Program-made: the position numbers and the translations under genes
NCBI GenBank assembly: GCA_024636155.1
Contig: JAGXHM010000068.1
Location: 1 to 64,000 of the forward strand
Reading direction: 5' to 3'
DNA from: Deltaproteobacteria bacterium
Lineage (GTDB): Bacteria > Desulfobacterota > Desulfuromonadia > Desulfuromonadales > BM103
DNA length: 64,000 bases
Notes under the pieces: model-generated
What the model was told of the DNA's origin: nothing
Database searches by the model: none
The model's input: the letters and a program-made list of their open reading frames with translations, nothing else
Shown here: positions 52,513-56,304 of the stretch, in pieces
Position numbering within the stretch: position 1 is the first letter of the stretch
Layout of the letters: every line of letters begins with the position of its first letter

Positions 52513-54537
52513 ATGTCTGACGAAACGAAAACTTATCAGCTGATCGTTCGCCAGCGTCCTGCAGCCAACCCGGAACTGGGTTCTTTGCTGCAGTTGCTGC
52601 AAGTCGATTTCGGTCTCGATAGCTACACGGCCCGCCAGCGTCTGATCGGTCCTGGGTTAGCTTTGTTCGGCAAGGGTCCTCTTGAAAGTACTGCTAAAAT
52701 CAAGGCTCTGCTGCAACTTCACGGATTTGCCTGCTGGCTGATTGAGCCACAGAAACCTGCCTTTGCTTCTGACCTGCTGCGCAGTCTGGAGATTCATAGC
52801 GACTATCTTTTGTTTACCTGTCAGAAGGGCACGGTACGGCTCGAGCGTGGGGCATCTGTGGTCGGAGTTCTGGCTGACCTTTCGGGAGGACTGGCTGACA
52901 AACATGTCAAGCGACTTCTGGCCCAGAATAGCTATCGTGGCAGCGATGCTCTGGAAGTTATCAGCCACGATGAGATGATTCGCACCACGCTTCAGGGACA
53001 GCCGGTTTTCGATTTTTACCTGCTTGATCAAGAACAGAAGGTACAGCAAGTTGTGCAGGTAATGCCAGGGCGTTTTAATGTTGACGGTCTCGGTTCCCGG
53101 GCCGCGATGGGTACCACGCAGAACTTGCAGGCGCTGGTTAGGCTGGTTGAAGAATATGCCGGGCCGTTCCGATTGTATTGTGACTTTGGCTTGAGCCCGC
53201 TGCCGAGATGCGATGTTAAACGGGCTTCAGACAGCCCGTCGGCAGCCATGGAAAATCTCGACAGCCTGAGCCGTTATGGTTGGCTGGTCACGCAGTTGGA
53301 AGGCGACGGCCGCCCTGCTACGAATCAGCAGCCTGACGGTGTCGGCCTGGTCGCCGGTGTCGCCGCAGCCGTTGTGGTTGGGCAACCGGTGCTTGGCACG
53401 ATGTTAGGATCGCGCGACGGTGTTAATGCGGTTCCAGGTCTTGATGAAGTGGCTCGTGAGATTCAGGGGGCGCTCGGCGATGACGGTGAAATCCCGGCTT
53501 GGCAACCACGTGTCGAAAGTCAAACAGAGCGTAGAGATTTGCCTGCTCCGCCGGATCGCCCGGCAGACAAACTGAATTGGGGCAAGACCTTGATGATGGT
53601 CTTTGTCGTTGCTGCCGGATTTTCAATTGCAACCGTCGGTGGTGATCTGCTCCGCTTGATATCCAGGTACGGGATGGCTGCCGGGGTTTTTCCGGCGGTT
53701 CTGGCCGTGCCCTTGCTCTGGGGTGGCTTTCATTTTCTTCGTCTCAAGCGGCATATTGAAAACACGCCGACCAGCAAAGTACGTTCGGTGGCTATGGGGC
53801 TGGTGGAAGTGCATGGTCGGACCAAACGCCTCTACGCTTTGGTCGCACCGATGACCCAGTCAGCATGTGCCTGGTACCGATTGCGCAAGTACCGCAAAGA
53901 TAACAATAAGAGCTGGAAACTGGTCAAAGAGGTCAACAGCAATCATGTCCCGTTTCAGGTCGACGACGGCACGGGGCGGGTGATCGTTGATCCGGCGGGG
54001 GCTTCCATAAAAGCCAAGGTCCAGCAGACAGGCTATCCCGGGCAGTCGCCGCTCACCTTTACTGCGTTCAGTAGTAGCGCTGATGAAGATGAAAAGTGGA
54101 TCGAGGATGTCATCTACGAAGGAACCTCTGTCTATGTGCTCGGTTTTGCCCGGCCGTTACGTGAAGAGCGTATGAGCCTGCGCGAGCGGACCATGGCCAG
54201 GCTGCGTCAGCTCAAGCTTGACCCTGAATTGATGGAACGTTACGATACTGACGGTGACGGCGTTATCGACGAAGCTGAATGGCAAGAGGCCCGTAACGAT
54301 GCCGAGCAGGAGGCGATGCGCGATCATCTGGATGACGGTAGCGCGCGCAAACGCCAGGAAGAGCATGTGCTGATAGGCAAGGGGCCGCAGCGCAGTCTGC
54401 CGTTTATTATCACCGAAACTGTTTCAGAGGTCGATCTGGTGCGCAAATACGGCTTGATCAGCATTCCCCTGCTGATTGCTGGCTTGGGAACGATGATTTT
54501 GGCTCTTTACAGGTTTTTGCAGTACATCGGGATTTAA
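52513..54537 (+). CDS. GIDE-domain membrane protein with EF-hand
   Basis: About 674 residues. A novel-looking N-terminal region (1-280; MSDETKTYQLIVRQRPAANP onward) is followed by a glycine/valine-rich hydrophobic patch (about 275-298), two membrane helices (about 359-380 and 387-410), and a cytosolic GIDE-like domain (about 420-560; VRSVAMGLVEVHGRTKR, CAWYRLRKYRKD). A canonical EF-hand loop DTDGDGVIDEAE (about 577) and a C-terminal membrane helix (about 645-668) follow. In mitochondrial MUL1 a GIDE domain lies between two membrane helices; the bacterial domain has no RING. The upstream ATG at 52465 is less likely. lemA follows 23 bases later. Confidence 0.8.
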   Translation: MSDETKTYQLIVRQRPAANPELGSLLQLLQVDFGLDSYTARQRLIGPGLALFGKGPLESTAKIKALLQLHGFACWLIEPQKPAFASDLLRSLEIHSDYLLFTCQKGTVRLERGASVVGVLADLSGGLADKHVKRLLAQNSYRGSDALEVISHDEMIRTTLQGQPVFDFYLLDQEQKVQQVVQVMPGRFNVDGLGSRAAMGTTQNLQALVRLVEEYAGPFRLYCDFGLSPLPRCDVKRASDSPSAAMENLDSLSRYGWLVTQLEGDGRPATNQQPDGVGLVAGVAAAVVVGQPVLGTMLGSRDGVNAVPGLDEVAREIQGALGDDGEIPAWQPRVESQTERRDLPAPPDRPADKLNWGKTLMMVFVVAAGFSIATVGGDLLRLISRYGMAAGVFPAVLAVPLLWGGFHFLRLKRHIENTPTSKVRSVAMGLVEVHGRTKRLYALVAPMTQSACAWYRLRKYRKDNNKSWKLVKEVNSNHVPFQVDDGTGRVIVDPAGASIKAKVQQTGYPGQSPLTFTAFSSSADEDEKWIEDVIYEGTSVYVLGFARPLREERMSLRERTMARLRQLKLDPELMERYDTDGDGVIDEAEWQEARNDAEQEAMRDHLDDGSARKRQEEHVLIGKGPQRSLPFIITETVSEVDLVRKYGLISIPLLIAGLGTMILALYRFLQYIGI

Positions 54538-54560
54538 CCTTTTGTCGAAGGAGATTTGCT

Positions 54561-55133
54561 ATGAGTGTCGGTTGGATTATCCTCGGAATTCTGGTTTTCA
54601 TCTTAGTTGCACTGGTGCTCTACATCATTACTATCTACAACGGTTTTGTGGCGTTAAGGAACAACATTGAGCGCAACTGGAGCAATATCGATGTTTTGCT
54701 CAAGCAGCGTTATGATGAACTGCCAAAACTGATCAAGGTCTGTGAAGGCTATATGCAGCACGAGCAGAAGACTTTGGAGGCGGTCATAAAGGCCCGTTCC
54801 ATGGTCAATCAGGCAGGAACCGATGAGCAGAAAATGCAGGCTCAGAACATGTTGACCGACACCTTGAAGTCTCTCTTTATGGTCGTTGAAAAATACCCCG
54901 ACCTTAAGGCTGACAAGTCGTTCCAACAACTCGGTTACCGAATTACCGAAATTGAGGACCAGATTGCAGATCGCCGCGAGTTCCTGAATGAATCGGTCAA
55001 TATCTACAATATTCGCCTTGAGCAGTTCCCCGACGTAATCATCGCTCGTCTCTTCAACTTTGCCAGGCGCACCCTCTGGCAGATTGATCCTGAACACCGC
55101 CAGGACGTCAAGGTCGACTTTCAGCACACTTGA
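54561..55133 (+). CDS. lemA: LemA family protein
   Basis: A 190-residue protein with one N-terminal membrane helix (VGWIILGILVFILVALVLYI) and a helical-bundle domain with NNIERNWSNIDVLLKQRYDEL and ARLFNFARR, the LemA signature. LemA proteins are found in many bacteria; their function is unknown. AAGGAG lies 8 bases before the ATG. It is the second gene of a two-gene unit with the GIDE/EF-hand protein, a pairing seen in other bacteria. Confidence 0.93.
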   Translation: MSVGWIILGILVFILVALVLYIITIYNGFVALRNNIERNWSNIDVLLKQRYDELPKLIKVCEGYMQHEQKTLEAVIKARSMVNQAGTDEQKMQAQNMLTDTLKSLFMVVEKYPDLKADKSFQQLGYRITEIEDQIADRREFLNESVNIYNIRLEQFPDVIIARLFNFARRTLWQIDPEHRQDVKVDFQHT

Positions 55134-55175: not shown

Positions 55176-55222
55176 AGACAAAGCGGGCTCCGTCTATTTG
55201 CTAGACGGAGCCCGCTTTGTCT
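55176..55222. terminator. Strong bidirectional terminator hairpin
   Basis: A 21-bp perfect stem with arms AGACAAAGCGGGCTCCGTCT(A) and its complement around TTTG. Lies between convergent lemA and the HAMP gene. Confidence 0.85.
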
Positions 55223-55243: not shown

Positions 55244-55840
55244 CTATCTTTGCTTTGAATATTTATCCAGGGCCTGAGCAATATTCTCTTTGCTCGCTCG
55301 CATCTTTTTGATCAATTCCTGCCCCGTCTCATTGCTGATCTGGCTGTTCCTGATCTTGTCTTCCAATTCACTGATACATGAAGACAAGGTCGCATAGTCC
55401 TCTTGCAGGGTTTTTACAAAGCCCCGCAATTCACTGATCACCAGGTTGAATTCTTCCGCCAGATCCTTGAGATCGTCCTTGTCTCTCAACTTGATGGAAA
55501 TGTCCAGGTTGCCACCAGAAATCTCAGCCAGGACCTTTTTGAAGCGATAAACCGGTCCGGCTATTCTGTGGGTAATGAAGATGCTCACAGAGCTCATGAT
55601 GAGAATGACCGCGCCGAGCGCTGGCCAGATACTCTCGTGTAGAGTCAACAACATCCTGGCAGCTTCAGCTTGCTCCTCGATGGGAGCGTCAAAGGTGAGC
55701 GGCACAATGTAGGGGAAAATCAGGATGACTACGAAAAGAACCGTGTACATAAGAAGCAGCAGAATCGTTAAGATGATGTACTTCGTTTGCAGTTGCTTGT
55801 CGATAAAATATTGTCTTCTTATAAGTTTGGCCATGATCAT
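55244..55840 (-). CDS. HAMP-domain membrane protein without output domain
   Basis: A 198-residue protein with two membrane helices ([20 protein letters not shown] and [17 protein letters not shown]) flanking a short periplasmic loop, then a HAMP domain ([35 protein letters not shown] split here) and a coiled-coil C-terminus. There is no methyl-accepting, kinase or GGDEF domain. It overlaps the prepilin gene by 4 bases (ATGA), so the two are translationally coupled; what it senses or controls is unknown. Confidence 0.8.
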
Positions 55841-56304
55841 GGGGCCTTTGAAATTTCTGTGGGTGTTAAGGTCAGCTCGGTGTGTTCTTTGTCTCTGGCT
55901 TTGACTGTCAAGGAATAGCTGCTGGTGGTTGTGTTGTAAAGTACAGCAGTGAGGTCAAGGTCGCCGTTGATTTGATCTAACATCATGTTTGAAAAGACAA
56001 TTTCACCTAAAGCATCTTGCCCAGAGGTTGGCTGTCCAACAGTAAAGTTTATTGGTTTGGTCGGATATTTTTGGTAGTCTATGTGAAAGGATTCAAAGTC
56101 TCTACGGATCGTATCAAGTGTACTGATTGCGACCGTTACTCTCGCTTTGTCAATATAGCTGTAGTAGGCAGGAATCGCAATCGCGGCCAGCACTCCGATG
56201 ATTGCAACGACAACCAGAAGCTCTAAGAGGGTAAACCCCTTTGATCCTTTGAGAGTGCAGGACTGGCTAAGAGCAGGTCGACTCTGCTTGGTTGGCACAG
56301 GCAT
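55837..56304 (-). CDS. Type IV prepilin-like protein
   Basis: A 155-residue protein with the prepilin peptidase site and methylated Phe in [20 protein letters not shown] (G|F at about residue 23), preceded by a basic leader longer than usual. The head domain (60-155) has no Cys pair, and no major-pilin or GspG signature; it could be a pseudopilin or minor pilin. It precedes the HAMP gene on the minus strand. AGGA precedes the ATG. Confidence 0.8.

Follow-up and report, generated by a model that had tools for sequence, protein, structure and literature searches.

We found that a GIDE-domain membrane protein and a LemA protein are encoded together, and have been kept together, in bacteria of at least four phyla, a partnership strongly supported by gene linkage and natural gene fusion. 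In the locus studied here, which lies in a stretch of 64,000 nucleotides from a Deltaproteobacteria bacterium (contig JAGXHM010000068.1, positions 1 to 64,000; hereafter the window), the GIDE protein also carries a single EF-hand. Judged from its sequence, this EF-hand likely binds Ca2+; since fused forms of the two proteins manage without it, Ca2+ is best regarded as a control layered onto a GIDE-LemA core. The breadth and tightness of the partnership, natural fusions included, was a bigger surprise than an EF-hand in one genome. For two families that lack characterisation, the pair offers a common role open to testing, probably within one membrane complex. The features of the locus are as follows.

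52513..54537, + strand: GIDE/EF-hand membrane protein, 674 aa (ORF and Pfam; homologues in 45 of 58 related genomes)
52525..52752, + strand: N-terminal subdomain 1, residues 5-80, ClpS or L7/L12 C-terminal domain-like fold (predicted model and structure comparison)
52762..53298, + strand: N-terminal subdomain 2, residues 84-262, strands and helices (high-confidence model)
53308..53532, + strand: linker modeled at low confidence, residues 266-340, including a hydrophobic stretch rich in Ala and Gly (pLDDT <40; hydropathy)
53578..53760, + strand: membrane helix pair TM1 and TM2, residues 356-416 (predicted structure, hydropathy)
53764..54156, + strand: GIDE/BAM domain with a predicted OB fold, residues 418-548 (PF12483 match in Pfam at residues 463-547; structure comparison)
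54178..54342, + strand: EF-hand helix-loop-helix, residues 556-610, with its 12-residue loop at 54244-54279 (Pfam, model, conservation, profiles)
54427..54528, + strand: C-terminal membrane helix, residues 639-672 (predicted structure, hydropathy)
54561..55133, + strand: lemA, 190 aa, a LemA helical domain with one N-terminal membrane helix (Pfam, 4.5e-50; solved relative 2etd, 7.5e-26)
55176..55222, + strand: perfect 21-bp GC-rich hairpin, 42 bases 3' of lemA (-42.1 kcal/mol, z -9.1)

The ORF coordinates place lemA 23 bases downstream of the GIDE gene, as an earlier note on this DNA had stated, with AAGGAG preceding the lemA ATG. An alternative TTG start 48 bases upstream of the ATG at 52513 would lengthen the GIDE ORF; relatives favor the ATG. 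The hairpin, which sits between lemA and a convergent gene and has no T-run behind its stem, is a possible operon end and may be a bidirectional terminator or another element. A pattern scan for sigma-70 promoters and terminators found nothing exceeding chance, and a plasmid search gave a single weak match. Upstream of the unit lies a mutY-like gene; the minus strand at window 55244-56304, convergent to the unit, encodes a protein resembling type IV pilins together with a small membrane protein that is HAMP-like. A larger conserved operon was considered and rejected: lemA is the only general neighbor, and lineage-specific genes such as the upstream mutY, acyl-CoA genes, and a J-domain gene make up the rest. 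Antiphage defense was likewise rejected, with no meaningful match in PADLOC; a GajA match on LemA (7e-4, 16 bits) is probably a chance match of coiled helices.

The earlier note had remarked that GIDE and LemA neighbors occur in other bacteria and had proposed a survey of the lemA neighborhood; the linkage proved conserved and far stronger than the letters alone could reveal. Cultured relatives with the pair include Pelovirga terrestris and Desulfuromusa kysingii. In related loci, lemA lay directly 3' of the GIDE gene in 28/30, the remaining two being one locus that stops at a contig edge and one (G040) with two genes inserted between the pair. In a public genome collection, lemA was the next gene in 71 of the 72 loci with enough sequence; in the single exception, the GIDE gene is duplicated in tandem and lemA follows the copies. 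One Elusimicrobia genome (L123:5926-7920) carries two tandem copies of the GIDE/EF-hand gene before lemA. Among Elusimicrobiota sampled, lemA adjoined 9 of 10 EF-hand GIDE loci (six downstream, three upstream). In three EF-hand loci of the Bdellovibrionota sample, lemA lay downstream; it lay upstream in six GIDE loci of greater divergence, only two of which have an EF-like loop. The occurrence of either gene order and of EF-hand-free pairs indicates that the pairing outlasts rearrangement and can do without an EF-hand. In 17 loci, most of them Desulfuromusa-type (L068, L069, L071, L080-L082, L084, L085, L087, L089-L092, L094-L096, and L098), the third gene, right behind lemA, encodes a J-domain (DnaJ-like) protein of ~170 to 230 residues.

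The two domains also occur in one polypeptide. Single ORFs with both Pfam families over cut-off were found in seven Myxococcota genomes from a sample of 141 (L137, L138, L140, L141, L142, L152, and L154). None of the seven carries an EF-hand, and the N-terminal module of the window protein is absent from them. Helices were counted in six of the fusions, and in each a pair of membrane helices lies between GIDE and LemA, which puts both domains on the same membrane face. GIDE-like sequence occurs twice in L154, and in L137 the fusion gene is immediately followed by another GIDE gene. In the same sample, all five EF-hand GIDE proteins adjoin a separate lemA, and GIDE proteins lacking a nearby lemA show no EF-hand. 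This pattern suggested that the EF-hand is strictly tied to lemA linkage, an idea that we rejected on the evidence of the EF-hand-free Bdellovibrionota pairs. A GIDE-domain tree, built by a quick method and with partly weak support, placed the EF-hand form on one side, plus one further change. Because the EF-hand is absent from the fusions and from several GIDE-lemA pairs, Ca2+ is neither essential to the partnership nor its core.

The source genome holds three lemA genes, each with a different type of partner. The second (L127:2569-5174, contig C11) is directly followed by a gene for a 681-residue protein that is DUF2207-like by eye, with a signal peptide, membrane helices, and a Gly-rich tail. 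The third (L128:5148-7207, contig C23) has a lipoprotein-like start and is followed by two TPM-like proteins.

The GIDE domain, EF-hand loop, and last membrane helix that the earlier note had read in the 674-residue protein were all recovered by our searches and models. The GIDE match (PF12483, 5.5e-9, residues 463-547) was over its cut-off (36.1 versus 23.6 bits), and the domain, predicted to lie between membrane helices at about 388-406 and 647-665, was modeled as an OB fold resembling 5gro (VIA Z 9.3 over 91 residues), archaeal RPA (Z 8.9), and generally the OB domains of AspRS, RPA, and MCM (Z 7 to 9). A further predicted helix spans about 359-377; the weakly hydrophobic segment at 276-294 probably does not cross the membrane.

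The EF-hand loop (residues 578-589, DTDGDGVIDEAE) is canonical, with ligands at positions 1, 3, 5, 9, and 12 and Gly at 6, and the AlphaFold model flanks it with helices 556-575 and 587-610, so that structure prediction bore out a loop between two helices. The HMM check that the earlier note had proposed gave a divided result: GIDE passed, but the single EF-hand_1 match (2.8e-4, residues 572-593) scored 20.7 bits, below its own single-copy cut-off of 25.4. A strict EF pattern arose in 26 of 20,000 shuffles of the GIDE protein, Pfam EF-hand models matched all 21 family members scanned, and a family profile searched against the PDB matched calmodulin-type EF-hands (best 4e-5). The loop was intact in 90/90 complete members from Desulfobacterota, Myxococcota, Bdellovibrionota, Elusimicrobiota, and one UBP2 genome, a count that includes many close relatives and hence fewer than 90 independent cases; the search pattern itself demanded some loop positions, and no complete member needed excluding. 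The only member lacking the loop (L124) is truncated by its contig. Across the 90, D at position 1, G at 6, E at 12, and W at 13 were invariant, only D or N occurred at 3 and 5, and only I, V, or L at 8; position 9 was mostly D or S, and positions 2, 4, 7, 10, and 11 varied. The EF-hand is therefore not an accident of the source genome, as the intact loop across relatives shows. It had been described as unusual; it is instead the defining mark of a GIDE clade. Lone EF-hands often bind weakly unless paired.

Which side of the membrane these domains face bears on what the EF-hand could do: inside the cell it can sense, whereas outside, where such sites are often saturated, it might be always loaded. 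In the window protein, a signal peptide is not obvious and two helices precede GIDE, and over 89 members the mean number of Lys and Arg residues was 5.0 in the 20 residues after TM2 versus 1.3 in the TM1-TM2 loop. These properties favor a cytosolic GIDE domain and EF-hand, and in the six fusions with counted helices positive charge flanks GIDE and LemA as expected for the cytosolic face. Against this, the lipoprotein-like lemA paralogue of the source genome lies beside TPM-like proteins, and the LemA domain has been predicted to be extracellular (PMC3905215). On balance, we consider a cytosolic location probable.

The N-terminus had been called long, novel, and unusual, a description that was not borne out: it is a conserved module common to relatives and not peculiar to the source genome. 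Residues 1-266, modeled separately from 69 sequences, gave a mean pLDDT of 94.5. In that model, residues 5-80 adopt the beta-alpha-alpha-beta-alpha-beta fold of ClpS and L7/L12 (VIA Z 8.6 over 75 residues at 2.7 A versus ClpS1, 7d34; Z 6.9 versus L7/L12, 1ctf; aligned spans of 67 to 75 residues). A PDB sequence search with residues 84-262 gave no significant match, and a limited fold comparison of the same residues showed none either. Proteins with subdomain 1 and no GIDE domain were seen at L039:1150-1809, L040:1414-2253, and G012:C97:35282-35476, the L039 and L040 proteins, from other genomes of this class, being weakly related, standalone versions of the module.

The linkage, the two gene orders, and the Rosetta-stone fusions argue for a GIDE-LemA complex. 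We propose, with a confidence that is about evenly balanced, that the products of both genes assemble into a single complex of the cytoplasmic membrane, in which a helix-loop-helix that binds Ca2+ separates the OB domain from the last helix. The GIDE protein would be seated in the membrane by its helix pair and last helix, holding the OB-fold domain against the membrane, with the single EF-hand connecting that domain to the last helix; LemA would be anchored alongside by its one helix, with its helical domain facing the same side, and the two proteins would bind each other. Ca2+ (or Mg2+) at the EF-hand may then stiffen or move the link between the OB domain and the last helix, which could alter how the GIDE protein engages LemA, and LemA in turn might organize other membrane proteins, as proposed for MamQ. 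A client or partner may dock on the N-terminal module. The earlier note had suggested a calcium-sensing membrane stress module. Its calcium half fared well, in that Ca2+ binding appears well supported by conservation, but no stress gene was consistently linked to GIDE-lemA loci and the EF-hand may play a structural part; a stress role triggered by Ca2+ is an inference.

If the complex is real and the EF-hand is structural, the site would be constitutively loaded with Ca2+ or Mg2+ and would hold the last helix at a fixed angle to the OB domain, with no sensing. Each protein has a lone EF-hand, the invariant Trp that follows the loop might form a structural core by packing, related pairs and fusions do without the motif, and on an outward-facing domain the site would always be occupied. 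However, strict conservation of the ligands in sequences with identity down to 25 to 30% is not needed for a purely structural element, though possible, and we regard this alternative as possible but somewhat unlikely. Less probable again, and in our judgment unlikely, is a role in membrane protein quality control, with the ClpS-like fold of residues 5-80 and the third-gene J-domain protein bringing clients or chaperones to a membrane scaffold. The fold is predicted and the J-domain gene is present at the 17 loci listed above, but hhalign comparisons of the N-terminal module with ClpS or L7/L12, run against single sequences, gave probabilities of ~1% or less, so that N-degron binding is not indicated; moreover, the J-domain gene is missing from the window locus and most others, and the N-terminal module was undetected in Elusimicrobiota members.

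A bolder extension of the complex takes GIDE and LemA as halves of an ancient membrane-remodeling machine in which a Ca2+ switch was gained here, such that a rise in Ca2+ would drive local membrane reshaping or repair. It joins the link of the MAPL BAM domain to mitochondrial dynamics and vesicles with the LemA fold of MamQ, on which normal magnetosome membranes depend, and we consider it doubtful. The Pfam family name, E3 Ubiquitin ligase, would suggest such an enzyme, but Pfam and NCBIfam scans found no RING or other ligase domain; with RING absent, we rejected this identity and give it next to no credence.

Several known systems share parts of this one. Eukaryotic MAPL/MUL1/MULAN likewise has a GIDE/BAM domain between membrane helices; unlike it, the window protein has no RING, carries a large N-terminal module, places an EF-hand after BAM and before the last helix, and is partnered with LemA. 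RING is the ligase part of animal MAPL, and prokaryotic BAM proteins studied have none (PMC4457424). That survey of BAM/GIDE evolution makes no mention of LemA or EF-hands, and it leaves the ancestral role of the MAPL BAM domain as an open question (PMC4457424). Searches of an open-access collection showed no paper joining GIDE with LemA or an EF-hand. A partnership fixed by linkage and fusion, with a testable Ca2+ site, allows bacterial experiments free of the confusing RING ligase part of MAPL.

The LemA family includes the magnetosome protein MamQ, which is needed for wild-type-like magnetosome membranes and has been proposed, from mutant and localization data, to be a cytoplasmic-membrane hub (PMC4902198). 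The window LemA belongs to that family through PF04011 (4.5e-50, 169.8 bits versus a cut-off of 26.2) and its similarity to 2etd (7.5e-26); it differs from MamQ in being paired with a GIDE/EF-hand protein and in scoring far under the MamQ equivalog cut-off (NF040966, 78.6 versus 250 bits). The Myxococcota fusions hold the same two domains, both on one side of the membrane, and differ in being fused and in having neither EF-hand nor N-terminal module. ClpS adaptors and the L7/L12 C-terminal domain share the fold of residues 5-80, whereas the window module is membrane anchored and showed no significant profile similarity to them in the single-sequence hhalign comparisons. By score, the window proteins are a GIDE-domain protein and a LemA protein, neither a MAPL-type ligase nor a MamQ equivalog.
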